Source of the DNA: Sphingomonas sp. R647
GTDB lineage: Bacteria > Pseudomonadota > Alphaproteobacteria > Sphingomonadales > Sphingomonadaceae
NCBI RefSeq assembly: GCF_020177055.1
Contig: NZ_JAIQXT010000003.1
Span: 186,001 to 250,000, forward strand
DNA: 64,000 nucleotides
Direction: 5' to 3'
Shown here: piece after piece, positions 1,377 through 23,640 of the stretch
Layout: each line of letters starts with the position of its first letter
How positions within the stretch are numbered: the stretch's first letter is position 1
Notes under the pieces: model-generated
Told to the model about the DNA's origin: nothing
The model's database searches: none
What the model saw: only the letters and a program-made list of their open reading frames with translations
Translations under genes and position numbers: made by a program

Positions 1377-1769
1377 TCAGGTCGGTCGTTCAAGCGAGTC
1401 TATGATCGGGCAGTCGGGGCGGTCGTCACCGCAGCATCGGGCCGCCAGATCAAGCAGCGCGCGCCGCATTTTTTCGAGCGCCTCCGCCTTGCGGTGTAGT
1501 TCCTCGGCGCGTGCGGTCGCCAGCGACTTAACGTCGGCCGACGACCGCGCGCCGTCGTGCCACAAATCAAGCAGCGTTCGGATCTCTTCGATGGGGAAGC
1601 CAAGGTCACGGGCGTTGGCGATGAAGCGCAACCGATGCATGTCGGCGTCGGAATAATCGCGGTAGCCGCTGTCCCGGCGCGGCGGTGCCGGGACGAGGCC
1701 GATCTTCTCGTAGTGCCGGATCATCCGCTGCGAGACACCGCTCGCCTCCGACGCGGGTCCGATTTTCAT
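1377..1769 (-). CDS. cueR: CueR/HmrR-like Cu(I)-responsive MerR-family regulator
   Basis: 130-residue copper-sensing transcription activator. An N-terminal winged HTH ([21 protein letters not shown]) is followed by a dimerisation helix and a C-terminal loop [12 protein letters not shown]. The first Cys of that loop and the later one are spaced C-x7-C, like the Cu(I)-binding pair of CueR (CPGDDSADCPII). This fits monovalent rather than divalent sensing. Its ATG overlaps the copA stop (ATGA, 1766-1769), so it is the second gene of an operon with the P-type ATPase and probably autoregulates through the promoter at 4139-4169. Symbol by family resemblance. Confidence 0.88.
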
Positions 1770-4117
1770 AGTTTCACCCGGTTCAATCGCAGGGCATTGA
1801 GGACGACGGTGAACGAAGACAGCGCCATCGCCGCGCCCGCGAACATCGGCGACATCAGGATGCCGAACGGGGGATAGAGCACGCCCGCCGCAATCGGTAC
1901 GCCGAGTCCGTTGAAGAGGAACGAGAAGAATAAATTCTGGCGGATGTTGCGCATCGTCGCATCGGCCAGTCTGCGTGCTCGGACGATTGCGGTCAAATCT
2001 CCACGGGTCAGCGTCATCCCCGCACTCTCGATCGCCACATCGGTGCCCGTTCCCATCGCCAGCCCCACGTCCGCCGCCGCCAGTGCGGGCGCGTCGTTGA
2101 TGCCGTCGCCGGCCATCGCGACCTTCGCCCCAGCCGCCTTCAGTTCGCCAACGATACGCGCCTTGTCCTCTGGCCTGAGATCGGCGCGAACATCGTCAAG
2201 GCCGCCGACTGCGTGCGCGACCGCGTCGGCAGTGGCCTGGTTGTCGCCCGTAAGCATGATGACTTTCAGACCCTCGGCGCGCAACGCGGCGATCGCCTCG
2301 CGGGCATTTGCGCGGACCGGATCGGCGACCGCGAGTAGTCCTGCCGGCGACCCGTCGATGGCGATGAACATGACCCCGGCTCCAGTCTTCCGGTGCGGGT
2401 CGGCAGCGGCCTCCAGCGCGAACGGATCGGCGCCGACACGGGTCATCTGCGTAGCGTTGCCAATCGCGATGATGCGGCCATCGATCACTCCGCTGACACC
2501 CAGACCGGTCTGGGATTCGAAGTTCTCTACCTTTCCAACAATGACGCCGCGTTCCGTCGCGGCCGTGACGATGGCGTGTGCGAGCGGATGCTCGGATTGT
2601 GCCTCGACCGCAGCGGCCAGGCCAAGCAAATCGTCCTGGTCGAACCCCGGCAGGGCTTGGGTGGCAACGAGCCTCGGCTTGCCTTCGGTGATCGTGCCCG
2701 TCTTGTCGATCACGAGCGTATCGACCTTTTCCAGCGCCTGAAGTGCTTCTGCGTTCTTGACGAGGACGCCAGCATGTGCGCCGCGACCCGTGCCGACCAT
2801 GATCGACATTGGAGTGGCGAGGCCAAGCGCACACGGACAGGCGATGATCAGGACCGCGATGGCATTGAGCAGTGCATGGCCGAAGCGTGGCTCCGGTCCA
2901 ACGAAATTCCATACGATGAAAGCCGCGATCGCGATTGCGACCACCAGCGGCACGAACCAGCCCGAAATGCGGTCGGCAACCGCCTGGATCGGGGCGCGGC
3001 TGCGCTGTGCCTCGGCAACCATCCGCACGATCCGTGCAAGCATCGTGTCCGCCCCCACCGCTCGGGCTTCCATGACAAGGCTGCCAGTGCCATTAACGGT
3101 TCCGCCGGTCAGCGCATCGCCCGCCGACTTCCCGACTGCTAGAGACTCACCGGTGAGCATCGATTCATCGACCGACGAACGCCCTTCGATAACTATGCCG
3201 TCAACCGGGATTGCATCGCCCGGCCGGATGCGCAGCTTGTCGCCCGCCGCCACGTCACCGAGTGACACTTCTTCCTCCGACCCGTCCTCACGGACACGGC
3301 GCGCGGTCTTGGGCGCGAGATCCATCAGCGCGCGGATCGCGCGCCCGGTCGCCGCGCGGGCGCGCAGTTCCAGCACTTGCCCGAGCAACACCAGCGTCAC
3401 CACGACGCCCGCCGCCTCGTAATAGACCGGCACCATGCCGCCGTGCATACGGAACGTGGGCGGGAACAAGCCAGGCGCGAAAGTCGCGACCAGACTGTAG
3501 AGGAAAGCGGCACCGACGCCGATTGCGATCAGCGTGAACATGTTGAGGTGCCACGTCCGGATCGACATCCAGCCACGCTCGAAGAAAGGCTTGCCCGCCC
3601 ACAACACGATCGGCGCAGAAAGCGCGAGTTGAACCCAGGGCGACGCGGCGGGGCTGACGATCTCGATGCCCAGCATCTCGGCGACCATCGACACGATCAG
3701 CAGTGGCACTGCGAGCGCGGCGGATACCCAAAAACGGCGGGTGAAATCGACCAGCTCCGGGTTAGGCGCATCGTCGAGCGAAGGCTCCTCCGGTTCGAGC
3801 GCCATGCCGCAGATCGGGCACGTGCCCGGCCCCTCCTGACGGATTTCCGGGTGCATCGGACAAGTCCAGATCGCGCCCGGCATTGCCTTGGGTTCCGGAC
3901 GCGGGGCATCGCTCAGATATTTGTCAGGATCGGCAACAAATTTGGTTCGACAGCCAGCACTGCAAAAATGGTAATCTTCGCCGTCATGCGCGGCATGATG
4001 CGCAGTTGTCGCAGGATCGACGGTCATGCCGCATACGGGATCCCTGACCGCGGACGTCGAGGGCTGGGTCGCGCAACAGCTGTGTTCGTCATGAGCCTTG
4101 TGGTCGGCATTGGTCAT
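1766..4117 (-). CDS. copA: Cu(I)-exporting P1B-type ATPase CopA
   Basis: Inner-membrane ATPase that exports Cu+ to the periplasm, 783 residues from the chosen start. The N-terminus has a His/Cys-rich leader, a YHS-type domain ([10 protein letters not shown], about residues 25-70) and a heavy-metal-binding zinc-ribbon-like domain ([19 protein letters not shown]). Eight membrane segments follow, with TGES in the actuator, the [10 protein letters not shown] metal motif and the [11 protein letters not shown] phosphorylation motif. CPC is the P1B-1 (Cu/Ag) signature. The frame also has an ATG at 4132, but GGAGGA sits eight bases before the ATG at 4117 and the upstream ATG would lie at the transcription start, so 4117 is preferred. 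Translationally coupled to cueR. Confidence 0.93.
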
Positions 4118-4138
4118 CGAGTCGTCCTCCATGACCCG

Positions 4139-4174: not shown

Positions 4175-4579
4175 TTATTTTCGAGCCGCCAGCCAGGTGT
4201 CGATTTCAGTGATCTCCGCGCGTTGATCTCGGATGATCTTCTCCGCCAACGCCCGCGCCTCTGGATCGTCACCGTGGCGCAGTTCGGTTTCGGCCATGGC
4301 GATCGCCGCCTGATGATGCCCCTTCATCTGCTGCATGAAATCCGTGTCGGCCTCGCCAGTGTACTTTGGCATGTTGGCCATCATGTCGTTCATCGACTTC
4401 TTGTACCCTTGGGTCGCCGGCGGGTCGCCGGGGCTGGCGGCCGACATGTCCATCGGCCTCGCTCCGTTGGCGGCCGACGTGGCGGCCATATCGTGCGCGC
4501 TATTCTGCTGCGCATTGTCGGAACAGCCTGCCACGGTCAGCGACCCGGCGAGCAGTAGCGGGATTGCAAGGTTCTTCAT
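4175..4579 (-). CDS. DUF305 lipoprotein
   Basis: 134-residue exported protein with a lipobox (LTVAGC, Cys about 19), so anchored in the periplasm. After a Met/His/Ala-rich linker, a DUF305 four-helix domain covers about residues 60-132, including MKGHHQAAIAMAE. DUF305 proteins are ferritin-like and common in copper islands, where Met and His residues are thought to bind Cu; the exact role is unknown. It has its own ribosome site (GGAGAAAG). The copA promoter lies in the gap after it, so copA can be transcribed independently. A second DUF305 protein lies at 11584-12021. Confidence 0.82.
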   Translation of the reverse strand: MKNLAIPLLLAGSLTVAGCSDNAQQNSAHDMAATSAANGARPMDMSAASPGDPPATQGYKKSMNDMMANMPKYTGEADTDFMQQMKGHHQAAIAMAETELRHGDDPEARALAEKIIRDQRAEITEIDTWLAARK

Positions 4580-4629
4580 GGCTTTCTCCTAGGATTCACC
4601 ACAACGCCCGGACGGACAATCCGTGCCAA

Positions 4630-5517
4630 TCACCCGACCGGTGACAGAGTTCCCAGGACCGCCACGACAGCGAGGATGAGCACCGCCGCCGCCGTCTCGA
4701 CCAGGATCGCCAGCCGCAATCGGTGCTGCGCGATGGCCTGCCTATCGCCGCCCAATGCCGTCTCCAGGGTTGGCACGAGCCGCCAGCGGTTGAACCCGGC
4801 CAGACCGAGCATGACGCCAAACAGGATGAGCTTCAGCACAAGTAGCTGTCCGTATGATGTTCCAAATGTCGTGGAGAGACCTTCGATCCCGACAATCGCG
4901 AGAAGGTTGATCGCTCCGCTGACGACGATCGCGGCGACGATGATCCCACCGATGCCGGAGAAGCGTGCCAGTGCGGCGATCGCAGTTGTTGCCCCGCCGG
5001 GCGTCGCAAAGTCGAGCAGCAGGAGCCGCGCGAACATCGCCAGCGCTGCAATCCACAGCGCGCCCGCAACCAGATGAACGATGTCGCTGCTGCGGTGCGC
5101 CCAGCCCAGCGCCGCTTCGGATGCGCCGGCATGACCGGTCCAGGCTAGCGAACCCAGCGCAACGAGCGCCAGCGCGGCCGCAACCGGCCTGCTCGCCCGC
5201 CCGGCGAGCTGGAACGCCGCCAGCAACCCGAGCGCGGCGGCGCGCACGATATGAGAGATGCCCATCGGCGTTTCAAACGCCATGAACGTGAGCATTTCCC
5301 GATCCAGTATGGCCAGGTCGTAGCCAGTCATGGCCAGGGACGTCGCAGCAAGCTGGGCGATCGTGATGACCACGCCTAGTATGGCCAGCCAGCCTATTAC
5401 ACGTCCGCCAATCCCCGGCGCATGTCGACCGAGACCGCCACCCATGGCAAGGCCCGCCAAAAGCATGAGATCGGCATAGGCGGCGAAACGCAGGCCGATC
5501 GCCACCCAGTCGCTCAT
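4630..5517 (-). CDS. copD: Copper resistance inner-membrane protein CopD
   Basis: 295-residue polytopic membrane protein with about eight hydrophobic helices. It carries conserved features of the CopD/PcoD family, such as the FETPMGISHIVRA and HLVAGALWIAAL regions whose His residues may bind copper. CopD works with CopC in moving copper across the inner membrane in bacterial copper-handling systems. It starts two bases after the copC stop, so the two genes form a tight copCD operon. Length is normal for the family. Confidence 0.88.
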   Translation of the reverse strand: MSDWVAIGLRFAAYADLMLLAGLAMGGGLGRHAPGIGGRVIGWLAILGVVITIAQLAATSLAMTGYDLAILDREMLTFMAFETPMGISHIVRAAALGLLAAFQLAGRASRPVAAALALVALGSLAWTGHAGASEAALGWAHRSSDIVHLVAGALWIAALAMFARLLLLDFATPGGATTAIAALARFSGIGGIIVAAIVVSGAINLLAIVGIEGLSTTFGTSYGQLLVLKLILFGVMLGLAGFNRWRLVPTLETALGGDRQAIAQHRLRLAILVETAAAVLILAVVAVLGTLSPVG

Positions 5518-5519
5518 GA

Positions 5520-5906
5520 TCAGCGGACGCTAAAGCTGTGCTGGCCGGTGATGCGATGCGTGTCCGCGCCAATCACGACCCAGTCAGCGCGGTAGCTGCC
5601 CGCGGGCAGCGGTTTGGCCGAGGTGAGGATGATCGACTTGCCATCGGCGGAAACGGCGCTGGTGACGCCCGCCATCTTCATGTCGGGATGGTTCGCCATT
5701 CCTGGCATCCCGGTCATGATCAGCGTGGCAGTGGAAAGCTTGGGCGTCAGGCGCTCGCTGAAGGTCAGCGTGATCGTCGTCGTGCGCGCGACCGTTGCGT
5801 TCGCGGCGGGCGTCGCCGTGACCAGCTTGGGATGTGCGAACGCGGTTGCCGGGATCAGCACCATGGCGAGGGCGGCGATGACGGCGGCGAATGGATTGAA
5901 CTTCAT
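5520..5906 (-). CDS. copC: Periplasmic copper-binding protein CopC
   Basis: 128-residue secreted protein: signal peptide of about 24 residues ending TAFA, then mature HPKLVTATPAAN. The N-terminal His of the mature protein is the hallmark Cu(II) ligand of CopC. The rest is the cupredoxin-like beta-barrel, with LTFSERLTPKL, a Met-rich stretch (MTGMPGMANHPDMKM) that could bind Cu(I), and ADTHRITGQHSFSV with C-terminal His ligands. First gene of copCD and divergent from the CnrY-like gene. Confidence 0.9.
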   Translation of the reverse strand: MKFNPFAAVIAALAMVLIPATAFAHPKLVTATPAANATVARTTTITLTFSERLTPKLSTATLIMTGMPGMANHPDMKMAGVTSAVSADGKSIILTSAKPLPAGSYRADWVVIGADTHRITGQHSFSVR

Positions 5907-5941
5907 CTCGAACTCCTGTGATATGCCCCCAATACGCAGTA

Positions 5942-5964
5942 CCGGTTTTTACCCCTCAAACCGG
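5942..5964. repeat. Inverted repeat in the copC/cnrY divergent region
   Basis: Perfect 7-bp arms CCGGTTT (5942-5948) and AAACCGG (5958-5964) with a 9-base spacer, lying between the divergent copC and cnrY-like genes. The position fits an operator or overlapping divergent promoters. No known site consensus was recognised. Confidence 0.4.
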
Positions 5965-6023
5965 CGTAGTTGAGGGATCGTGCATTCTCATACGTATGGG
6001 AAGCAGCGGATTACGAGGCAGTC

Positions 6024-6302
6024 ATGCAAACCAATATCGACGATGCCCTTCAGCGGCTGGCGACAGGAACGCCGCATCGGGGACTGGCGGGTCTGGAAGA
6101 CCGAGTCCTGAATGCGATCGCGCAACAGCCGGTTGCGGGCTTCGGTGCCGGCACCACGTTGGGGGCGATGGGCCTCGCACTGGCGCTCGGCGTTTTCAGC
6201 AACGTCGTTCCATCGACCGATGCGCAGGCCGCGCCGGTGCTGTCGCCTTTGGGCGCGTCCAGTCCGCTCGCCCCATCGACACTGCTGGGCGCGACCCGAT
6301 GA
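6024..6302 (+). CDS. cnrY: CnrY-like membrane-bound anti-sigma factor
   Basis: 92-residue protein: a short cytoplasmic part (residues 1-40, LAGLEDRVLNAIAQQ), one membrane helix (about 45-62, LGAMGLALALGVF) and a small periplasmic tail. CnrY of Cupriavidus is a roughly 95-residue one-helix anti-sigma factor that holds CnrH, with the same gene order. The call rests mainly on size, topology and the two unmistakable partners downstream. ATG 6024 is chosen because GAGG precedes it; the frame is also open from a TTG at 5970. Its stop overlaps the start of the CnrX-like gene (ATGA). Confidence 0.68.
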   Translation: MQTNIDDALQRLATGTPHRGLAGLEDRVLNAIAQQPVAGFGAGTTLGAMGLALALGVFSNVVPSTDAQAAPVLSPLGASSPLAPSTLLGATR

Positions 6303-6736
6303 ACACACGGCGCACCGGGATCATCGTGATACTGGTTTTCCTCGCCGCATTGCTCGGGGTGGTCGCCGGACGATATCTTGTCGAACCGGCGGCACAGCCC
6401 GGGGCGGAGCTCCATGCGGTTCTTCACGACCAACTGAGTCTGGACGCGGCGCAGGAACGACAGCTGCATGTACTTGAGGAAGCGTTTGCCGTGCGCCGTC
6501 GCGCGCTCGAACTGGAAATGAAGGCCGAGAACGCCCGGCTTGCCGAAGCGATCGCCGCCGAGCACGGCAACGGCCCGCGCGTCGCCGCCGCGGTCGATGC
6601 TTCGCACCGCACGATGGGGGAGCTTCAGAAGGAAACGCTGGCGCATATCTTCGCGATGCGGGCTCTGCTCAAACCCGATCAGGCGGCGAAGTTTGACGCC
6701 GCAGTGACCAAGGCACTGACCGAAGACGCACGGTGA
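6299..6736 (+). CDS. cnrX: CnrX-like periplasmic metal sensor
   Basis: 145-residue sensor with an N-terminal membrane anchor (residues 7-24) and a helical periplasmic domain. The Ni/Co ligands known in CnrX (H42, H46, E63, H119, M123) all have counterparts at a constant offset of three: H39, H43 (HAVLH), E60, H116 and M120 (HIFAM). In CnrX, metal binding changes the interaction with CnrY and frees CnrH. Start overlaps the cnrY stop and the end overlaps the sigma gene (GTGA). Metal identity cannot be read from sequence alone; the complete Met-containing site favours Ni/Co, yet the flanking genes are for copper. Confidence 0.83.
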   Translation: MNTRRTGIIVILVFLAALLGVVAGRYLVEPAAQPGAELHAVLHDQLSLDAAQERQLHVLEEAFAVRRRALELEMKAENARLAEAIAAEHGNGPRVAAAVDASHRTMGELQKETLAHIFAMRALLKPDQAAKFDAAVTKALTEDAR

Positions 6737-7293
6737 CCGACGCACTTGCCGACCGCACGGACGGCGAGCTGGTCGCCCTGTGCCTTGGTGGAAGTCAGCT
6801 GGCGTTCGCTGAAATCGTGCGCCGTCACAAGGATCCACTGCATCGGCTCGTCGCGCGCATCGTCGGTGACGACGACGAAGCGCTCGACATCGTGCAGGAA
6901 GCCTTCGTCGCCGCGCATCGCGCGCTGCGGCGTTACGACATGGCGCGGTCGATGCGCCCCTGGTTGTCGCGCATCGCGATCAACAAGGCGCGCGACTTGC
7001 GCCGCCGCCGGGCGATACGCCGCCTGATCTCGGTCGTGCTTCCGCTCGACCATGCCGCCGACACCGCCGACGCAACGCCGTCGATCGAAACCGCGACCGC
7101 CGATCGCCAGGAGTTGCGGCAGGTCACAGCTGCCATCGCCGAACTGCCGGCCAATCTGCGCGAGACACTGGTGCTCCGCACGATTGAGGGGTTGAGCCAG
7201 GCCGAGACCGCCGAAACGCTGAGGATCAGCGAAAAGGCGGTCGAGACGCGCCTGTATCGCGCACGTCAGCGACTCACTGCGTCGCTGTCATAG
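6733..7293 (+). CDS. cnrH: CnrH-like ECF sigma factor
   Basis: 186-residue ECF sigma factor with GTG start. Region 2 spans about residues 20-85 (LAFAEIVRRHKDPLHRLVARIVGD, then DDEALDIVQEAFVAAHRAL) and region 4 about 120-180 (LPANLRETLVLRTIEGLSQAETA, then the HTH ISEKAVETRLYRARQRL). Third gene of the translationally coupled cnrYXH-like set. It should activate its own operon and some metal-resistance genes nearby once released from CnrY; I could not pick out its promoter motif. Sigma identity is certain; the Cnr subgroup rests on context. Confidence 0.87.
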   Translation: MTDALADRTDGELVALCLGGSQLAFAEIVRRHKDPLHRLVARIVGDDDEALDIVQEAFVAAHRALRRYDMARSMRPWLSRIAINKARDLRRRRAIRRLISVVLPLDHAADTADATPSIETATADRQELRQVTAAIAELPANLRETLVLRTIEGLSQAETAETLRISEKAVETRLYRARQRLTASLS

Positions 7294-7357
7294 AGCGTCG
7301 CCGGAGAAATCTTGCAGATCGCGCAAGGGATGCGCGCCCGGGCGTCGTATTATCCGC

Positions 7358-8521
7358 ATGGGGGCGGTGGACCAAACAGGCGGGGGCGGCGATCCGTCGG
7401 CGCGCGACGGCGGTGTAGAGACGCGGGCAAGCGGGGCTTTCGTCGTCATGGACGCCCTGCGGTGCGTGCTGGCGGTGACGGTGGCGTTCGCCCATGCTTG
7501 GTATCTCCTGATCGCCGATTATTCGGGACAGGCCACGACGATTGCGTCGGCAGGTTATTTTCTGGCCGGTTTCGCCCATGCCAGCGTCATCCTGTTCTTC
7601 GTCCTCAGCGGTTACTGGATCGCAAAGAGCGTCGACCGGCGGATGACCGCAGGCTGGGCTTGGACGGGCTATGGGATCGACCGGCTCGCGCGGTTGCTGG
7701 TCGTTGTGCTGCCTGCGTTTGCGATCGGCGGCATCCTGGACGCAATTGGCCTCTATGGCCTTGAGTCCTCGACCCACACCGGCGCGACCGACACCTATGT
7801 GCTGAACAACAACCTTGCGGAGCGGCTGGGATGGCAGACCCTCCTCGGCAACATCCTGTTTCTTCAAAGCATTGCCGTAGCTCCGTTCGGCACCAACGGT
7901 CCTTTGTGGAGCCTGGCGTATGAATTCTGGTTCTATATCTGGTTTCCGGCACTGTGGGTCAGCTGGCGCAGGCGACGCCCGTCACTGCTGCTCGCCACCC
8001 TGTTCCTCGCCTGGATCGTGCCGAATATGCTGGTTGGCTTTGCCTGCTGGCTTTGCGGGGCGGCATTGTTCTGGGTGACCCACCGTTCCGGGAGGCAGAG
8101 CTTGCAGCCACTACGCCGCTTGTGGCTAATCGGTGCAGGTATCCCGTTCCTCGGAACCCTAATCTATTCGCGACTCCTCGGGCTTGACGGGACCGAGCTG
8201 CCGCTGGCGTTTACGTTCGCAGTGCTGCTTTACACATTGTTGCGCATCGATCTGTCCGCGCCCCGCTGGCTGAGGCCGTTCGCCCGCTATGGCGCGCAGG
8301 CGAGCTTCTCGCTGTATGTCCTGCATTTCCCGATCATCGCCTTCGCCGCTGCGTTGTTGCTCGACGACAAGCGTTTGCCCGCGACCGGAGCGAACATCGC
8401 GCTTGTCGTCGCGGTGCTTGCGGCGACGATTTTGATCTCCGCCCTGTTCGCACGGCACACCGAACGGCACACGGCCCGGGTTCGCGCGTTCTTCTCCGAC
8501 GCACGGCCCGCCCGGATTTGA
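7358..8521 (+). CDS. Acyltransferase 3 family membrane protein
   Basis: 387-residue integral membrane O-acyltransferase of the OafA/acyltransferase-3 family, which moves acyl groups onto extracytoplasmic sugars. About ten hydrophobic helices are seen. The N-terminal part has the R-x10-H pattern (LRCVLAVTVAFAH) and SVILFFVLSGYWI; later come NGPLWSLAYEFWFYIWFP and SFSLYVLHFPII, both typical. It sits 64 bases after the sigma gene and ends in a terminator, so it may be the last gene of the cnr-like operon. The substrate is unknown; a link to envelope remodelling under metal stress is only a guess. Confidence 0.85.
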   Translation: MGAVDQTGGGGDPSARDGGVETRASGAFVVMDALRCVLAVTVAFAHAWYLLIADYSGQATTIASAGYFLAGFAHASVILFFVLSGYWIAKSVDRRMTAGWAWTGYGIDRLARLLVVVLPAFAIGGILDAIGLYGLESSTHTGATDTYVLNNNLAERLGWQTLLGNILFLQSIAVAPFGTNGPLWSLAYEFWFYIWFPALWVSWRRRRPSLLLATLFLAWIVPNMLVGFACWLCGAALFWVTHRSGRQSLQPLRRLWLIGAGIPFLGTLIYSRLLGLDGTELPLAFTFAVLLYTLLRIDLSAPRWLRPFARYGAQASFSLYVLHFPIIAFAAALLLDDKRLPATGANIALVVAVLAATILISALFARHTERHTARVRAFFSDARPARI

Positions 8522-8542
8522 TGCGCGTGGCAATCCGGGCGG
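8508..8542 (+). terminator. Likely intrinsic terminator after the acyltransferase gene
   Basis: Perfect 11-bp arms CCGCCCGGATT (8508-8518) and AATCCGGGCGG (8532-8542) with a 13-base loop, overlapping the stop codon and followed by TCTTTC. It would separate the sigma operon from the multicopper oxidase operon. Confidence 0.65.
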
Positions 8543-8617
8543 TCTTTCGCCGATCGCGATGAGGGCCGGGCCGATATTCTGCGTAAAGCGGGTAACGTCA
8601 TCGGAGCCATACATCAC

Positions 8618-10435
8618 ATGTCGCTGCTGCTAAGCCGTCGTAATCTGCTGCGCGGAGCCACCCTTGGGGGCGGCTCGCTCGCTTTCGCCCCGTGGTTTCC
8701 GGCGTGGGCACAGCCGGTGTCGGCTGGTATCGTCCAGGCGCTGCCGAGTGTCTCCGGCGAGGATATCCGACTGCGCATTGCGCACCAGATGATGACGATC
8801 GACGGACGCGAAAGCCACGCGATCGGCATCAACGGCACGATCCCAGGCCCGCTGATCCGGCTGCGCGAGGGTCAGAATGTCCGGCTGCACGTGGAGAACG
8901 CGCTCGACGAGGACAGCTCGATCCACTGGCACGGGCTGATCCTACCATTTCACATGGACGGCGTACCGGGCGTCAGCTTTCCGGGCATCAAGCCGCGCTC
9001 GACCTTCACCTATGAGTTTCCGGTCAAACAGGCCGGCACCTATTGGTATCACAGCCATTCGGGATTGCAGGAGCAGCTTGGCCATTACGGGCCGATCGTG
9101 ATCGATCCGGCAGGCACGGACCCCATTGCCTCCGACCGCGAACATGTCGTCGTGCTGTCCGACCATAGCGAGATGCACCCGCACATCATCTTCAAGAAGC
9201 TCAAACAGCAGGGCGGCTATTTCAATCAGCAGAAACAGACGCTGGCCGATCTGCTGCGCGGCGAAGGCCAATCGGCCAAGGATCGCCTCGATTGGGGCAA
9301 GATGCGCATGGACCCCACCGACGTCTCCGACGTGACCGGTTCGACCTATAGCTATCTGGTCAACGGCCACGGCCCGCGTGACAACTGGACCGCATTGTTC
9401 ACGCCCGGAGAGCGGGTGCGGCTGCGCATCGTCAACGCATCGGCAATGACCACCTTTAACGTCCGTATTCCGGGGTTGAAGCTGACGATCGTCCAGGCCG
9501 ACGGGTTGAATGTACGCCCGGTGCAGGTGGACGAGTTCCAGATCGCCGTCGCTGAAACCTATGACGTGATCGTCGAGCCGTCCGACGATCGCGCCTATAC
9601 GCTGGTTGGCGAAAGCGTCGATCGCTCGGGCATGGCACGCGCCACACTCGCCCCGCGCGCGGGAATGGCGGCGGAGGTGCCGCCTTTACGCAAACGGCCG
9701 ATCGCCACCATGAAGGATATGGGCATGGGCGGCATGGATCACGGTGCGATGGCGGGCGCAGCCGCCACGCCGGGTGCCGGGGATTGCCCGCCCGAACATG
9801 CCGCGATGGGCCATTGCACGCCTGCGGCAAGCGGCGCGGCAGACGCCGGGGCTGGCGGCGGCATGGCCGGGATGGAACATTCGATGCGTGATTTCGCCGT
9901 CGCGCCCGGGGTCAAGAAAACGCCGACAGTCCAGACGATCTCACCGATGCCGATGGACCGCACCGGCGAGCCCGGCCAGGGGCTGGCGGATGTCGGGCAC
10001 AAGGTGCTGGTCTATCGTGATCTGATCGCGGTGGAGCGCAACCCCGATGTGCGTGCCCCGGACCGGGCGATGCGCATCCACCTCACCGGAAATATGGAAC
10101 GTTACATGTGGGCGTTCGACGGGGAGAAATTGAACGAGGTCAAGGATCCGATCCCGTTCCTGCAGGACGAGCGGGTGCGCGTCACCCTGGTCAACGACAC
10201 GATGATGGGCCACCCGATCCATCTCCACGGCCATTTCTTCGAGCTGGTGACGGGGCATGGCGAATATGCGCCGCGCAAACATACGGTGCAGGTGCAGCCG
10301 GGCGGCACCGTGACCTTCGACGTCACCACCGACGCGGTCGGCGACTGGGCGTTCCACTGCCACATGCTCTATCACATGCATGCGGGAATGATGCAGGTCG
10401 TGACCGTCCGACCGCGCGGGGGAGAGGGGGCATGA
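8618..10435 (+). CDS. copA: Periplasmic multicopper oxidase, CopA/PcoA family
   Basis: 605-residue copper resistance oxidase, exported folded by the Tat route (LLSRRNLLRGA at the N-terminus), that oxidises Cu(I) in the periplasm. All type 1/2/3 copper motifs are visible: HWHGL, YHSHSGLQEQLGHYG, HPIHLHGHFFE and HCHMLYHMHAGMM. Between domains 2 and 3, about residues 365-430, is a Met/His/Cys-rich insert (MGMGGMDHGAM, CPPEHAAMGHCTP, GGMAGMEHSM) typical of PcoA-type enzymes. The Cys-containing motif is repeated exactly in the next gene product. Translationally coupled to copB (ATGA). Confidence 0.93.
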   Translation: MSLLLSRRNLLRGATLGGGSLAFAPWFPAWAQPVSAGIVQALPSVSGEDIRLRIAHQMMTIDGRESHAIGINGTIPGPLIRLREGQNVRLHVENALDEDSSIHWHGLILPFHMDGVPGVSFPGIKPRSTFTYEFPVKQAGTYWYHSHSGLQEQLGHYGPIVIDPAGTDPIASDREHVVVLSDHSEMHPHIIFKKLKQQGGYFNQQKQTLADLLRGEGQSAKDRLDWGKMRMDPTDVSDVTGSTYSYLVNGHGPRDNWTALFTPGERVRLRIVNASAMTTFNVRIPGLKLTIVQADGLNVRPVQVDEFQIAVAETYDVIVEPSDDRAYTLVGESVDRSGMARATLAPRAGMAAEVPPLRKRPIATMKDMGMGGMDHGAMAGAAATPGAGDCPPEHAAMGHCTPAASGAADAGAGGGMAGMEHSMRDFAVAPGVKKTPTVQTISPMPMDRTGEPGQGLADVGHKVLVYRDLIAVERNPDVRAPDRAMRIHLTGNMERYMWAFDGEKLNEVKDPIPFLQDERVRVTLVNDTMMGHPIHLHGHFFELVTGHGEYAPRKHTVQVQPGGTVTFDVTTDAVGDWAFHCHMLYHMHAGMMQVVTVRPRGGEGA

Positions 10436-11547
10436 AGATGTTGTCGCTCGCCACCGCCGCCGCCGCAATCGCACTGGCCGCCCCCGTCGCCGCGCAGACG
10501 ATGGATCACTCGAAAATGCCCGGCATGAAGATGCCGGCGAAAACCGCGCCCAAGCCAAAGCCGGTAGCGAAGCCGCGTCCGACGTCGACACCGGCAGCAA
10601 AGCCAGCTGCAATAGCGGCACCCGCGAAACCGGCGCAGGCGGCACCGGCCACCGACCCGGCCTGCCCACCTGAACATGCGGCAATGGGGCATTGCACACC
10701 CGCGGGTGCAGCCCCCGCTGCGCCCGAGAAAGCCGGGGGCGATAGCTCGGCAATGCCTGATATGGCCGCCGATGCACCGAGCACCGGCAGCGGCGGGACC
10801 GCGCTGCCCGCCGGAAACGCTCCGGCACCCGCCGCGCCCGAGCCGAACTATGCCGACCGTGTCTGGGGGCGCGAGGCGATGACCGGCGCGCGCAAGGCAC
10901 TGCGCAGCGAGCATGGCGGCGGCACGTTCAGCCAAATCATGCTGGACATCGCCGAGCTGCAAATCCGCAAGGGGCGCGAGGGCTATCGGTGGGAAGGGGA
11001 AGGCTGGTTCGGCGGCGACATCGATCGGCTGATCGTCAAGACCGAGGGCGAAGGCAGCTTTGGTGAGGCGGTCGAAAGCGCCGAGGCGCAGGCGCTCTAC
11101 AGCCGCGCCATCGGCCCATATTTTAACCTGCAGGCCGGCGTCCGTCACGATTTCGAGCCCAAGGCGCGTAGTTATGCAGCGTTCGGCATTGAGGGGCTCG
11201 CCCCCTATTGGTTTGAAGTCGAGGCTCATGCGTTCGTATCGACCAAGGGCGATGTGCTGGGACGGCTCGCGGCCAGTTATGATCAGCGGATCACCCAGCG
11301 GATTATCCTGCAACCGCGCGTCGAGTTCAATCTGGCGGCGCAGGATGTAATCGAGAGCGGAATCGGCGCGGGGCTTTCCGATGCCGAGTTCGACCTTCGT
11401 CTGCGCTATGAGATCGTACGCGAATTCGCGCCTTATATCGGCATCTCGCATTCATCGAAATTCGGCCGCACCGCGCGCTTCGCCCGCGCTGACGGCGAAG
11501 ACCCTTCGGCAACCACCTTCGTCGTCGGGATCAGGGCCTGGTTCTGA
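10432..11547 (+). CDS. copB: Copper resistance outer-membrane protein CopB/PcoB
   Basis: 371-residue exported protein with a signal peptide (about residues 1-20, cleavage after VAAQ). A long low-complexity Pro/Ala/Lys-rich region (20-140) holds MDHSKMPGMKM and CPPEHAAMGHCTP. A C-terminal beta-barrel domain (about 145-371) ends in WF, as expected for outer-membrane insertion. CopB/PcoB is thought to bind or pass copper at the outer membrane together with the oxidase. Start overlaps the oxidase stop. Confidence 0.9.
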   Translation: MKMLSLATAAAAIALAAPVAAQTMDHSKMPGMKMPAKTAPKPKPVAKPRPTSTPAAKPAAIAAPAKPAQAAPATDPACPPEHAAMGHCTPAGAAPAAPEKAGGDSSAMPDMAADAPSTGSGGTALPAGNAPAPAAPEPNYADRVWGREAMTGARKALRSEHGGGTFSQIMLDIAELQIRKGREGYRWEGEGWFGGDIDRLIVKTEGEGSFGEAVESAEAQALYSRAIGPYFNLQAGVRHDFEPKARSYAAFGIEGLAPYWFEVEAHAFVSTKGDVLGRLAASYDQRITQRIILQPRVEFNLAAQDVIESGIGAGLSDAEFDLRLRYEIVREFAPYIGISHSSKFGRTARFARADGEDPSATTFVVGIRAWF

Positions 11548-11583
11548 GGTCGGAGACCGACGAAAATGGCAAAGGAGAATGCA

Positions 11584-12021
11584 ATGACCCCCTATCGCAG
11601 CCTCGCACTGCAAACCGCCATCAGCGGGGTCATCATGTATCTGGTGATGTTCGTGATGATCGACCAGCTGTCGAGCTTCTACAACAACCTCAACATGCTC
11701 TACATGACGCTGATGATGGTCGCACCGATGGTTGTGCTGATGATCGTGGCGATGCGGGACATGTTTCCGTCCAAGCGCCTCAATGTGTTGCTGCTTGCCG
11801 GATCAGCCGTCGCGTTCTTCGGCAGCTTCGCGTTGCTCCGAACTCAGACTACGATCGACGACACCGCATTCATCCGATCCATGATCCCGCACCATTCAGG
11901 TGCGATCCTGATGTGTGAGCAGGCATCGCTCAGCGATCGCGAACTGGTATCGTTGTGCCGACAGATCATCAAATCACAGCGCGAGGAGATCGCGCAGATG
12001 AAAAGCATGCTGGAAAATTAG
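11584..12021 (+). CDS. Membrane-anchored DUF305 protein
   Basis: 145-residue protein with three hydrophobic helices (about residues 8-28, 38-58 and 66-85) followed by a short DUF305 segment: FIRSMIPHHSGAILMCEQASL and a final helix QIIKSQREEIAQMK. The start is set at 11584 because AAAGGAGA lies just upstream; an in-frame ATG at 11566 lacks a site. It follows copB by 36 bases and precedes the DUF411 gene by 9, so it belongs to the copAB operon. DUF305 His/Met residues suggest copper binding; function unknown. Confidence 0.8.
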   Translation: MTPYRSLALQTAISGVIMYLVMFVMIDQLSSFYNNLNMLYMTLMMVAPMVVLMIVAMRDMFPSKRLNVLLLAGSAVAFFGSFALLRTQTTIDDTAFIRSMIPHHSGAILMCEQASLSDRELVSLCRQIIKSQREEIAQMKSMLEN

Positions 12022-13135: not shown

Positions 13136-14485
13136 TCACAATCCCTTCTTTTCCCGGCGCGGCCAGTGACGGTGGAGATCGTCGATCTGAAAGGCGTGCC
13201 CAGCCCGTCCATCTGGATGTGCCTCGATCAGATGCGGGTGACCGGGCGGCAGGTCGTCATGACGATGCTCGACCACTTCCGGATCGCGGGATGGCCAGAT
13301 CAGGAATGCAATGATGGTTCCGATCGCGGCCAGAATCGCGGTCGCCGTGAACGCCGTGCCAAATCCTGCGAGCGCGCCGACTTGTCCGGCGAGCGGGTAG
13401 GCGATCAACCAGCAGATATGGCTGAGCGCGAACTGTGCCGCGAACAATGCGGTGCGATCATCGGAACCCGCTGAACGTCGTAACAGCCGTCCGCCGGGTG
13501 TGATGCTGGCGGCATAAACCATACCGAGCAGCAGCCACCCGCCCAGCAACGCATACCAGAAGCCTGATCGCCCGTGCAGCTGCCATCCCAGCGCCAGCGC
13601 GCCGAGCAGCAGGGTCATCGCTGCGGCGGAAGCCAGCATCACCGTACGATCCACAACCCGATCGAGCAGTCTGGGTAACAGCAATGCGGCGATCATCGAG
13701 CCGCCGCCGAATGCGGCCAGGGTCATCGCGACCTCGCTCTGCCCAAGGCCCAGCCCCGCGCGGATCAGAACCGGCGTGTTGACGATCACCATGGCGCTGG
13801 CGGCGGCAGCGGCAAGGGTTACGGCGAGCAAGCCGCGCAACCGCGGTGTCGCGAGATAGATGCGGGTGCCCAGCGTCGTGTTGGTCCAGATGCCACCTTG
13901 TCGCTGCTTCGCCGATGACGCGGGCAGCGCGGTCGCCAGCACCAGCAATGCCGATGCCGCAAAGCCGACCGCCGTCCCGGCGAACAACCAGTGGAAGTTG
14001 AAGACCGTGAGCAGCGCCGCCGCCAGGATCGGGCTGGTCAGGCTCTCCATGTCATAGGCCAGCCGCGAGAGCGACAACGCCCGGGTATAATCCTTCTCGT
14101 CCGGCAATATGTCGGGAATAGTCGCCTGAAACGTCGGCGTGAACCCGGCGGAGGCCGATTGCAGGATGAAGATCAGCACATAGACCTGCCAAACCTGGTC
14201 CACGAATGGCAGAACCAGCGCGACGCCGATGCGAATGACATCCATCGCGATCAAGAACGCGCGGCGTGGCAGACGGGCGGCATAGGCACCAACGACAGGC
14301 GCGACGCCGATATAGGCGATCATCTTGATTGCCATCGCCGTGCCCAGCACCGCTCCGCCGTTGCTACCGGCGATCTCATAGGCGAGCAGGCCCAGCGCGA
14401 CGGTCGTCAGACCCGTGCCGACCAGCGCGATGACCTGCGCCAGGAACAGGTTGCGGTAGGTGGTATTGCTTAGAACGGCGAGCAT
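13136..14485 (-). CDS. MFS exporter with His-rich C-terminal tail (NreB-like)
   Basis: 449-residue major facilitator protein with about twelve membrane helices (residues 1-405) and a cytoplasmic tail of about 45 residues rich in His (EHRHDDLPPGHPHLIEAH, later DLHRHWPRR). The MFS nickel exporter NreB has the same layout of an MFS carrier with a C-terminal His-rich region, so nickel (or Co/Cu) export from cytoplasm to periplasm is the likely role. It follows the anchor/HupE genes in the same direction. Metal choice is inferred, not shown. Confidence 0.75.
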   Translation of the reverse strand: MLAVLSNTTYRNLFLAQVIALVGTGLTTVALGLLAYEIAGSNGGAVLGTAMAIKMIAYIGVAPVVGAYAARLPRRAFLIAMDVIRIGVALVLPFVDQVWQVYVLIFILQSASAGFTPTFQATIPDILPDEKDYTRALSLSRLAYDMESLTSPILAAALLTVFNFHWLFAGTAVGFAASALLVLATALPASSAKQRQGGIWTNTTLGTRIYLATPRLRGLLAVTLAAAAASAMVIVNTPVLIRAGLGLGQSEVAMTLAAFGGGSMIAALLLPRLLDRVVDRTVMLASAAAMTLLLGALALGWQLHGRSGFWYALLGGWLLLGMVYAASITPGGRLLRRSAGSDDRTALFAAQFALSHICWLIAYPLAGQVGALAGFGTAFTATAILAAIGTIIAFLIWPSRDPEVVEHRHDDLPPGHPHLIEAHPDGRAGHAFQIDDLHRHWPRREKKGL

Positions 14486-14531
14486 TTCATGTCCCCATTG
14501 TCGTCCGCTTCACACGTCAGAGACGCTCGCG

Positions 14532-15161
14532 TCAAACCACCCGTTTGATCGCAGCGTAATTCCCGCTGGTCTTCAGCGTGACCGTCACCGGCGCGCCTGA
14601 GCGGTTCCGCCAGAACCAGCCATGTCCCCCGTCGAATGCAGCAACCAGCGTGCCGCGCTCGCCGGTCGACTCCTTGCCTTTGCCATAACCGTGGTAGAAG
14701 CCGCGAGGCGCGCCGATCTTGTCGCCATGCGTGTCATAGTTGACGTGTCCGCCCGTCACCGACCAGTCGAATGCGATAGCGGCCCCGGCGTCCGCAGTGA
14801 CCTTGATCTCAGCCGCTTCGCCGGGTGCAAGCGTCAGCTTCATTTCGTCGGTGCGCGCGGCTGCCGCCTTTGTCGCATCGGCCTTTGCCGCTGGTGACGT
14901 CGCCACCGGCATTGCCGACGGAGTCGGTGCCGCCGCCTGCGCTTCTTCCTCGGCAGCTTCCGCCGCGAGCTGCTGTTTGATCTCGCCCATTTCGGTCAGG
15001 CCGAGCACCCGCCCGATGCCCGTGGGATCGATGGCATATTCGGATGGCAGCACGATAGTCACGAGCAACGCGCCCGCAACCCCCGCCGCAATCGCGGTCG
15101 AGCGAACGAGCTGACGCGACGTGGGCAGTTCGTCGGCGTTTGGCATCTGGGAATTATACAT
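14532..15161 (-). CDS. Membrane-anchored periplasmic beta-domain protein
   Basis: 209 residues: a cytoplasmic N-terminus, one membrane helix (about 22-40), a Glu/Ala-rich predicted coiled coil (55-75), an Ala/Pro linker, and a C-terminal domain (about 105-209) with beta pattern and conserved-looking FDWSVTGGHVNYDTHG and GGHGWFWRNRSG. Proteins of this type are commonly annotated as transmembrane anchor proteins and are found beside HupE/UreJ permeases, as here (13-base gap). Role unknown; a periplasmic metal-handling partner of the HupE protein is plausible. Confidence 0.65.
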   Translation of the reverse strand: MYNSQMPNADELPTSRQLVRSTAIAAGVAGALLVTIVLPSEYAIDPTGIGRVLGLTEMGEIKQQLAAEAAEEEAQAAAPTPSAMPVATSPAAKADATKAAAARTDEMKLTLAPGEAAEIKVTADAGAAIAFDWSVTGGHVNYDTHGDKIGAPRGFYHGYGKGKESTGERGTLVAAFDGGHGWFWRNRSGAPVTVTLKTSGNYAAIKRVV

Positions 15162-15174
15162 GGGATTTCTCCGG

Positions 15175-15899
15175 TCAGGCGGCGACGAGGCCGGTCAGTT
15201 GGTAGCCCACCAGCACGAAGCCAGCGGTCATCAGGATTACGTTGGCGACATAAGCATGGCGCTGGAAGCTGCGGGTGCGACGCCAGAAACCCATCGCGAT
15301 CAGGATCGCGCCGAGCGCGAGCAACTGGCCGATTTCGACACCGATGTTGAACGCAATCAGATTGGGCAGCAGGCCGTTCGGCGACATCTCGAACTCAAGG
15401 ATTTTGGTCGCCAGTCCAAAGCCATGGAAGAAGCCGAAGATCAGAGTTGCCGCTTTGGTATTTGGCTGAACGCCGAACCATCGCCGGAACGCCCCCATAT
15501 TATCGAGCGCCTTGTAGACGACGGACAGACCAATGATCGCGTCGATGAGATAGGCGTTGGCGCTGATCCCGGTCAGCACGCCGAACAGCATCGTGGTGGA
15601 ATGGCCGACCGCGAACAGCGTGACGTAGATGCCGATGTCCTTCATCCGATACAGGAAGAAGATGACCCCGAACAGGAACAGCAGATGGTCGTATCCGGTG
15701 ACCATATGCTTGGCCCCCAGATACAGGAAAGGCATGAACAGCACCCCGCTGCTTTCCTGAATATAGCCCTTGTCGCCTTCCTCGACGCCATGCGCGAACG
15801 CATCGACGGCGGCGAGCAGCAGGACCAGCAGGGCGCTCAGCAACAGGAGCGCGGTTCGTTTATCAGACATCCATCGCTGGATTGTGTTCGCAGGCATCA

Positions 15900-15903
<4 letters not shown>
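15175..15903 (-). CDS. HupE/UreJ family permease
   Basis: 242-residue membrane protein of the HupE/UreJ-2 family: N-terminal signal-like helix ending DAFAHG, then about six helices with GYDHLLFLFG, VGHSTTMLFG, FGFFHGFGLA and FNIGVEIGQL, the family's conserved His/Asp/Glu positions. HupE and UreJ are linked to Ni (or Co) transport for hydrogenase and urease, but no such enzyme is nearby, so a metal-resistance role is likely here. The coding start can be any of three tandem ATGs (15903, 15900, 15897); AAAGGA favours 15897. Overlaps the lipoprotein stop. Confidence 0.83.
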
Positions 15904-20768
<4,865 letters not shown>

Positions 20769-20769
<1 letters not shown>

Positions 20770-22007
20770 CAGAAATCCCCCTTGGCGAGTTCGGTGAAGC
20801 GGCCGGTCAGTCGGTCGAGTTCGACCCTGGCCTCATGGTGACGGCGCACGGCATCGACCATCCGGGCGCGGGCATTGGCGAGCGTCGTTTGCGCCGCCGA
20901 CACATCGACATAGCTGAAGAATCCGCGATTATAGCCGACGCGGACCTCCATCAGAGTGAGGTCGGCGTTCGGAATGACCTGATCGCGGATCGCCTCCGCC
21001 TCATGCGCGGTTTCCTCGACCTTCTCGACGGCCAGCGCGATCGTCCGTTCGCGGGTGAAGCGCTCAACCGCCAGATCGGCCTCGACCCGCCGTCGGTCGG
21101 CCTGGGCTTCGGCTAATCGTGCGTCTGATATGCGACGTCCTCCCAGCGGCAATGAGACGCCAGCGACCAGTGCGACATCACCGGTGCCAATGAAGCGCGG
21201 TCCCGCAGAGATTGTGGGATCGCGCTTGGCATTCGCGACCTGAAGGTTGATCGCTGCATCAGCACGCGCGCCGCGCGCCACAAAAACGGCAAGGTCCGCC
21301 GGGGCTGCCCCCGCCGCGCCGACGGGCTCGTGCTTGAACGACAGAAAGTCGCTGGTCGGGACCGATAGACCAGCCGATGCACCGCCCCACATTGCCGCCA
21401 GTCGCTTCAGCGCGGCGTCGCGGGCGTGAATCGCAAGTTCCACATCGACGCTGGCTTCGGACACACTGGTGGTCGCGCGCATTCCGGCGAACAGCGGGTC
21501 TTTGGCTGAAGCGACGCGGCGCTTCACTTCGGCCTCGACCATCCGGGCCATCGTCAGCCGCTGCCTGGCGATACCGATCTGCGCCTCGGTCGCCTGTACC
21601 TCGACATAAAGACGCTGGACCTGTGCAATGACGTCTAGCCGAACGACGATCGCCTCAGCGCGCGTCACGTCCATATCGCGATCGACGACGGCAACGCGCG
21701 CTTCGCGCTTGCCGCCGCGTTCGATGCGCTGGCTGTAGGTGGCAGTGACCTGAAACTGATCATAGAGGTCGCCGCTCGGAATGCCGAAGTTTTCAGTCGT
21801 GACTTCGATCGTCGGTTGCGGACCCAGTCCGGCGGCGGTGCGCGCGGCGGTCTGCGCCTCGATCCGGGCGGCGGTGGAGGCGGTTTGCGGTGCGGCGGCA
21901 AGCGTGCGCCGGATTGCGTCGTCGAGCGTCAGCGGCTGTGCCTGAGCCAGCGCTGCCGATGGCAGACAGACAGCCACGACAAGCGCGGCCCTGAACGGGG
22001 AATGCAT
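20769..22007 (-). CDS. TolC-family outer-membrane channel (CzcC-like), system 1
   Basis: 412-residue outer-membrane efflux protein with a signal peptide (to about residue 23, ALAQAQ) and two outer-membrane-efflux repeats of long helices (about 25-210 and 215-405). TLDDAIRRTLAAAP at the mature N-terminus is typical. First structural gene of the CBA pump, preceded by AGGAGA. Follows the CzcI-like gene by 63 bases. Confidence 0.87.
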
Positions 22008-22454: not shown

Positions 22455-22918
22455 ATACCGGCCCGTAGCATCCTGGGCGAAGCGGGGCAATCGGCGACTA
22501 GTGCCAAAAATCTCGACGGAGTCTTCGAATGTGGTTCGCGGGTTCGCGAGCAGCAACCCAAGCCATCCAAGCAAAGGTGATAAGATCTACCAAGGCGGGC
22601 ATTTGGCGCGCATTCAACCGACCCTGCCGGAGTTGCTTCTTCGAGTCAGGCTGTTAGTCTGCTCGGGTGCCGCGAGGGCGGCGCCGAGGCTTGAGAACCT
22701 CGCTTGGGAAGAATGACCCGCCATCGACGCGGCCGGGTGGCCGACGCGCATGTCCAAGCCGCTTGCGGCCAAAGGCGTCGGCGCACGACTCAAGCGTGCT
22801 TCTCAACACCCGGCTTCCGCCGGCGTCGCCTCGAAACGGGCGAGTCGGCGATGGATATTGGACTGATCAGATTTTTTCGGGCGAGTGGTCCGCCATACCC
22901 TCGGGATCGGGTATCGCG
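22455..22918. other. Intergenic region between czcI-like and sigma genes
   Basis: 464 bases between divergent genes. It must hold the czc operon promoter and the sigma promoter, but no long-spacer MerR box or clear ECF box was recognised. Short open frames here lack codon bias or homology. Base composition changes little, so no junction is obvious. Confidence 0.4.
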
Positions 22919-23506
22919 ATGCGCCTGATCCCCGATGTTTTGAACGCATTGACCTCGCCTCGCCTGGCCGAGGGCGATCCATTGCCGCCCGATAATCGGG
23001 TCGCGGCCGGATCGGTCCTGGCGCTGAACGACTTGTACCAGACTCAGGCGCCGCGGCTGCATCGCTACTTCGCGCGCCGGACGGATCGGCAGGATGTGGG
23101 AGATCTGGTGCAGGAGAGCTTCGCCCGGCTCGTCGATGCGTCGGCGACGAAGGACCGGACGATCGAGCAACCCGAAGCCTATCTCAACCGTATCGCGACG
23201 AACCTGCTTCGCAGTCGCGCGAGGACCGCCTTGCAGCGATCGCTCGCCCAGCACGTCCCTGCGGATGAGGAATCGCTCGCCGGGCCAGACATGATCGCGG
23301 CGCTGGAGGCGCGTGATCTACTCAACCGGCTCCAAGGCGCCCTGATGCGGCTTAATCCGAAGACCCGCGAGATATTCCTGGCCCACCGCGTCGATGGCGT
23401 CAGCTATAGCGATATCGCCAAGCGGATGGGATTGAGCGTAAAAGGCGTCGAATGGCACATGACGAAGGCAATCGCGCGTCTCGACCACGTGCTGAGGTCG
23501 CGTTGA
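22919..23506 (+). CDS. FecI-like ECF sigma factor
   Basis: 195-residue sigma factor from ATG 22919 (the longer frame to 22667 is non-coding in character). Region 2 contains RYFARRTDRQDVGDLVQESF and region 4 LNPKTREIFLAHRVDGVSYSDIA with HTH LSVKGVEWHMTKAIARL. FecI-type factors serve siderophore and TonB-receptor genes together with a FecR anti-sigma/sensor. The expected fecR follows with a TTGA overlap but is broken after 46 codons, so this factor has lost its normal control here. No TonB receptor is in the window. Confidence 0.85.
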   Translation: MRLIPDVLNALTSPRLAEGDPLPPDNRVAAGSVLALNDLYQTQAPRLHRYFARRTDRQDVGDLVQESFARLVDASATKDRTIEQPEAYLNRIATNLLRSRARTALQRSLAQHVPADEESLAGPDMIAALEARDLLNRLQGALMRLNPKTREIFLAHRVDGVSYSDIAKRMGLSVKGVEWHMTKAIARLDHVLRSR

Positions 23507-23640
23507 CATCCGAGGCCGGGGAGGCACCCAGCCCGGACGATACCATCCGGGCGACCGCTGTCACCTGGCTGGCGCGTCTGCGCGCGCCTGACAGCGCGGA
23601 CCATCATGAGGATTTCGAGGCCTGGTACGCCGCCGATCCA
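23503..23640 (+). pseudogene. fecR fragment (5' 46 codons only)
   Basis: Starting at the TTG overlapping the sigma stop, the frame gives 46 residues with the FecR N-terminal cytoplasmic pattern (AVTWLARLRAPDSADHHEDF then EAWYAADP). Homology ends abruptly at 23640, where the recombinase reading frame starts in another phase. The periplasmic FecR domain and its membrane helix are missing, and the rest of fecR is not found elsewhere in the window. Confidence 0.72.

Follow-up and report, generated by a model that had tools for sequence, protein, structure and literature searches.

Gene content of the YXH–cop locus

We describe a regulatory locus in a 64,000-nucleotide stretch of Sphingomonas sp. 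R647 (contig NZ_JAIQXT010000003.1, positions 186,001 to 250,000), the whole of which is called the window. Three consecutive genes, named Y, X and H here, resemble the cnrYXH genes of Cupriavidus. Judged from sequence, they form a CnrYXH-type relay inside a copper-resistance cluster; the relay likely senses periplasmic copper, and H is predicted to drive YXH, copCD and copAB. The genes and predicted promoters, by position in the window, are as follows.

4630..5517, minus strand: copD (NF033808, 219.3 bits, cut-off 195)
5520..5906, minus strand: copC (NF033814, 110.9 bits, cut-off 95)
5932..5959, minus strand: predicted H-dependent copCD promoter, pointing away from the Y site, TTGAGGGGT-N14-CGTAT
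5970..5997, plus strand: predicted H-dependent promoter of YXH, TTGAGGGAT-N14-CGTAT (boxes TTGAGGG and CGTAT)
6024..6302, plus strand: Y, small one-span membrane protein of 92 aa, predicted anti-sigma factor of the CnrY kind
6299..6736, plus strand: X, CnrX-type periplasmic sensor with H39, H43, E60, H116 and M120 plus H103 and M106
6733..7293, plus strand: H, extracytoplasmic function (ECF) sigma factor, nearest solved relative CnrH (4cxf, E 3.4e-27)
8561..8585, plus strand: predicted H-dependent copAB promoter, 32 bases ahead of the start of copA
8618..10435, plus strand: copA, multicopper oxidase (TIGR01480, 825 bits)
10108..11547, plus strand: copB, open frame as listed (PF05275, 290.5 bits, residues 274-479)

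The order Y-X-H with its short overlaps is that of cnrYXH, and the family matches place copCD on one side and copAB on the other, both as a preliminary description of this DNA had it. The same description had put Ni/Co-type genes about 6 kb away, and the RND genes do lie 6–15 kb from the relay. The translation start of copB is probably further inside the listed open frame.

Of the 22 solved sequences that H matches with E no higher than 0.001, CnrH is the best. Region 4 of H stops at residue 181 of 186, and the protein has a single Cys. For Y, there was no match in Pfam, NCBIfam or PDB, and a phmmer search was also empty; comparison with CnrY-type proteins gave a weak end-to-end profile match (probability 86.6, 13% identity over 88 columns). 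The length of Y and its single hydrophobic span, which begins at about residue 44, fit CnrY, though the search rule itself required such a span. In the predicted periplasmic tail of Y, residues 82-88 keep the pattern L-A-P-S-x-L-L (P84 in 71/72, L88 in 68/72), and the counterpart in CnrY is S-P-F-x-L-L. This stretch is a possible contact with X.

The sensor and its copper-linked relatives

X belongs to the CnrX fold and sequence family, and its structure model has a membrane anchor (helix 3-27). Residues H39, H43, E60, H116 and M120 align with H42, H46, E63, H119 and M123 of CnrX; the claim of a full CnrX ligand set at a constant offset of three is borne out, with His and Met at the CnrX positions. 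One other reading takes X for a less specific sensor like ZraP or CpxP, responding to envelope stress or to several metals, with the copper genes as one of many outputs. Folds like those of ZraP and CpxP stand further down the structure list, X touches the LTXXQ family at 22.8 bits (below the family cut-off), and some motif matches on an S. yanoikuyae plasmid, described below, stand at genes without an evident copper role. We regard this reading as very improbable. The periplasmic proteins ZraP, CpxP and Spy share a related helical hairpin fold with X, but, unlike them, X has the modelled membrane anchor, the CnrX ligands and a sigma/anti-sigma operon.

CnrX-like sensors at 207 places were classed by their neighbours, as copper-linked where copA, copB, copC or copD lies within 5 kb and as nickel-linked where cnrCBA homologues of at least 40% identity lie within 5 kb. 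There were 179 copper-linked and 14 nickel-linked places. The 14 with neither neighbour (13 of the His/Met type and one remote Gln/Val sensor, L310) were kept out of both classes; a copper ATPase or cop genes occur within 7.5 kb in 9 of these 13 His/Met places. The set of 207 is redundant, the window being present twice over (with L003) and plasmid pSLPG twice (L102, L227), and representatives at 90% identity number 123 (105 copper-linked, 6 nickel-linked, 12 neither).

The five CnrX ligands do not separate the two classes. Among the 179 copper-linked sensors, H43, E60 and H116 are retained in all and H39 and M120 in 177 each. The reading that five matching ligands make X a Ni/Co sensor was rejected because both groups retain them. 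What does separate the classes is position 103, which is His in 179/179 copper-linked and Glu in 14/14 nickel-linked sensors, and position 106, which is Met in 178/179 and Ala in 14/14. At 90% redundancy, the split is between 105 copper-linked and 6 nickel-linked representatives, and six further positions also divide the classes. In the structure model, H103, M106, H116 and M120 share helix 93-122. The preliminary description had spoken of the same ligand set as in CnrX; this is right as far as the five ligands go, yet H103 and M106 are a further hallmark of the copper-linked ones. When columns 89, 103 and 106 were left out of the tree (48 of its 79 inner branches are unresolved), the nickel-linked sensors formed a single branch with support 100 and a long stem. 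Therefore, the H103/M106 change counts as one event and its link to copper as a correlation.

Of 1542 protein matches, 120 were listed, and 27 of these were aligned. A first alignment, of 28 sequences, suggested H89 as a third marker, which was dropped since it varies in the wider set of 207. Position 132, corresponding to Y135 of CnrX, is Phe in 114/116 H103-type representatives and Tyr in 8/8 CnrX/NccX types; a Y135F form of CnrX has been crystallised, going by the title of 4wwb.

The copper neighbourhood is sustained across relatives. Of the 80 related loci, which were the best of 454 confirmed, most have copA and copB after H. When the two loci of the window's own genome are added, 75 of 82 carry copC in the opposite orientation no more than 2.5 kb ahead of X. 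Annotated examples are pSLPG (Sphingobium sp. SYK-6), pSES220 (S. yanoikuyae SHJ) and pHMP9 (Sphingomonas sp. HMP9). The second YXH–cop copy in the own genome is on contig C1 (L097, G000:C1:103000-118000) at 4553-11872, where MerR and glutaredoxin-like genes stand between H and copA. In whole-genome draws, X was matched in 80/199 genomes of the window's family, and the CnrX stretch was matched in 91/199 of a second family of the class, 9/299 of a Cupriavidus-like family and 17/398 of the phylum. The idea of a chance copper setting, peculiar to this island, was rejected, since the linkage is conserved in sphingomonads and in the second family of the class.

Predicted promoters of the relay and the copper genes

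The copC–Y interval holds two head-to-head sites, where shuffles gave none; they gave the motif GAGGG-N16-CGTA, which H presumably reads. Because the motif was derived from the copC–Y sites themselves, the real test lies in other genomes. Among 57 distinct copC–Y intervals (the window's included), the plus site is present in 45, the minus site in 48 and both in 38. A looser form of the motif (A/G-AGGG, 14-19 bases, CGTA) was run over the copper-linked 90% representatives with single-letter shuffles as control. It occurs before Y in 93/105 (about 3.1 in shuffles), before divergent copC in 48/50 (about 0.9) and before copA in 82/85 (about 2.3), the upstream regions of Y and copC being two strands of one stretch. 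The spacer is 16 in 217 of 225 looser-motif sites.

In the 4.15-Mb own genome, GAGGG-N16-CGTA has 12 matches, 7 of them at the two YXH–cop copies. Each copy has one match ahead of copC, one ahead of Y and one ahead of copA, and the seventh precedes a small gene adjoining the second copD. Since the reversed control gives 20 matches versus these 12, the evidence consists of their clustering only. A scan of 61 genomes of the genus found matches in 51, single matches being about equally common in the reversed control, so that only clustered ones would be telling. Within the window, the looser form has six matches. The four with spacer 16 all fall at 5.9-8.6 kb, and the remaining two, with other spacers, fall at 29.3 and 41.9 kb; the looser form was not found at the Ni/Co-type genes (12-22 kb).

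Plasmids (60 of 79 records listed, in each of two lists) served for comparison. Where copAB operons stand away from YXH, on pSES189, pYGP1 and pLA4, no motif site was found before copA. Plasmid pHMP9 has five sites, before copC, Y, copA, a DUF305 gene and a copper ATPase, and no site was found at its NreB-like and TolC genes, next to which lies a gene for a metal-sensing repressor. On pMOL28, AAGGG/GAGGG and CGTA boxes with a spacing of 17 bases precede cnrY and cnrC, and one motif match falls inside cnrB. The six nickel-linked representatives have a site before Y in 3 and before cnrC in 4, with a spacer of 17 in 6 of the 7 sites. The boxes in the CnrH and H promoter regions are alike and thus seem to have been kept while the effectors differ; copA occupies the position held by cnrC in the cnr layout.

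Metal input and comparison with known systems

In the cnr model (PMC7689651, PMC9045368), metal on X leads Y to release H. By analogy, we presume that Y holds H and that X controls Y. Metal binding by X would loosen the hold of the predicted membrane anti-sigma factor Y on H, and freed H would recruit RNA polymerase and start transcription at YXH, copCD and copAB, targets predicted from the motif. H103 and M106 might shift X towards copper by serving as additional ligands or as alternative ones. The relay would work like CnrYXH and not be a Ni/Co determinant because its neighbours are copCD and copAB and there is no site at the RND genes. X is likely a copper sensor since promoters are predicted at the copper cluster and since its two conserved residues are absent from nickel sensors. 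The regulon and these two added soft-metal residues point to copper as the metal, and copper is presumably the physiological inducer. The preliminary description had left a choice between Ni/Co signals coupled to copper genes and a site re-tuned to Cu. Probably the relay is wired to the copper genes and the sensor re-tuned to copper, as the conserved copper linkage and the predicted sites at copper, not Ni/Co-type, genes favour.

The other branch of that choice is that X has remained a Ni/Co sensor, or responds equally to Ni, Co and Cu, by means of its intact CnrX site, and that the signal switches the copper genes on as a general periplasmic metal defence. The five Ni/Co ligands retained in nearly all copper-linked sensors speak for it, and so does a nickel response. 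RNA-seq data reported for Sphingobium sp. ba1 (PMC5557971) have copA, copB and copC up in 10 mM Ni. A CnrCBA-, NreB- and HupE-like cluster, which resembles the window's genes at 13-22 kb, rose with them, as did a two-component system of the CopS type. In S. yanoikuyae HAMBI_1842 there is a gene set (ALDH, AdhP, CopA, CopB, MFS, DUF411) with the make-up of the Ni-induced copAB operon of ba1, and there is a site before its last gene, DUF411. Because Ni raises the ba1 cop genes and this site exists, a Ni effect through X is possible. However, no motif site was found at the head of the HAMBI_1842 set, before ALDH, and no predicted site was found at the Ni/Co-type genes of the window or pHMP9. The Ni-induced CopS-type system offers another route to the same response (PMC5557971), and fixed residue differences set the copper-linked sensors apart from CnrX. 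On balance, Ni/Co input seems unlikely.

The HAMBI_1842 plasmid NZ_CP139980.1 carries two YXH copies (L348, L349). Sites on it precede copC and the gene of a four-helix copper-binding protein, and several motif matches lie at genes without an evident copper role. On motif evidence, the DUF411 and four-helix protein sites are possibly part of a wider copper regulon.

Several points weigh against the favoured reading. The nickel response of ba1 and the intact Ni/Co site are two of these, and the motif is not rare genome-wide. Four H/M-type sensors (L234, L236, L281, L287) have no copper gene in the stretch examined. H103 and M106 could mark ancestry or serve contact with Y rather than metal choice. 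On the side of copper, there is a CnrX crystal with that metal, going by the title of 3epv, and M123 of CnrX is required for signalling (PMC7689651), so the original site might by itself serve copper too.

The known systems differ from the relay in separate ways. CnrYXH/NccYXH of Cupriavidus (cnrYXHCBAT on pMOL28) is alike in gene order, small overlaps, CnrX fold with five ligands and CnrH-like sigma factor, and Y is a small membrane protein with a weak likeness to CnrY. In CnrYXH, too, sites with these boxes precede Y and the leading effector gene. Its effectors are cnrCBA(T) instead of copCD and copAB, its sensor has Glu/Ala instead of H103/M106, its promoter spacer is 17 bases instead of 16, and, unlike CnrYXH, the relay has a divergent second promoter towards copC. 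CorE of Myxococcus xanthus is likewise an ECF sigma factor controlling a multicopper oxidase gene, and it senses copper itself through a Cys-rich C-terminal extension (PMC10141476). In contrast, H has no Cys-rich extension, ending 5 residues after region 4 with one Cys, and sensing is predicted in X and not in the sigma factor.

CopRS/PcoRS-type two-component systems control copABCD. They resemble the relay in passing a periplasmic copper signal to cop genes, but an ECF sigma relay stands in their place here. No histidine kinase or response regulator family was matched among the genes scanned at 1.4-22 kb of the window. Control of the CopRS/PcoRS type is named in PMC10141476.

One fuller version is that the CnrX fold became a copper sensor through a second His/Met site (H103, M106) beside an intact Ni/Co site, this copper-tuned relay being a standard copABCD switch in sphingomonads and the second family of the class, in the expected place of a two-component system. 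We offer it tentatively, with somewhat more doubt than belief.

Each component has been described before. Their combination, copABCD tied to a CnrYXH relay that has the paired promoters and H103/M106, did not appear among the titles and abstract openings listed from open-licence literature, with most subscription papers outside and several lists showing 15 or 20 of 51 to 258 hits. Discrimination of Ni/Co from Zn/Cu by CnrX is known from a small protein group. The copper-linked sensors are related to it and numerous; they share its ligands and have similar promoter boxes, but their regulon differs. Both types occur in one genome (G351), which has four H/M-type sensors, of which two adjoin cop genes, and a single CnrX-type sensor next to cnrA- and cnrB-like genes. 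Therefore, metal choice by a periplasmic sensor becomes testable with natural pairs. For copABCD in sphingomonads, the relay is the likely regulator, and the database names of its proteins ("nickel and cobalt resistance protein CnrR", "periplasmic heavy metal sensor") suggest another metal or none.

The remaining features near the relay are as follows.

1766..4132, minus strand: copper-type P-type ATPase adjoining the cluster (TIGR01511, 562.8 bits)
7325..7349, plus strand: weaker candidate (AAGGG) in front of the acyltransferase gene, differing from the strict motif by 3 mismatches (about 5 such matches expected in the window)
7358..8521, plus strand: Acyltransferase_3 family gene (PF01757), between H and copA

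An Acyltransferase_3 match occurs near YXH in only 4 of the 80 related loci. No predicted H site was found in front of the ATPase gene. Behind it lies a MerR-family gene (1377-1769, minus strand), and a similarly placed MerR-type gene is called cueR in annotated neighbourhoods elsewhere. The Ni/Co-type genes (13136-22007, minus strand) comprise MFS (NreB-like), HupE/UreJ, RND pump, adaptor and outer-membrane genes, the pump being about 49% identical to CnrA. Novosphingobium pLA4 has the same Ni/Co-type set followed by copAB, without YXH. Adjoining the Ni/Co-type genes in the window is a separate regulatory pair (22667-23937, plus strand), a second sigma-70-family gene and then a DUF4880 gene, which we take to be FecR-type.
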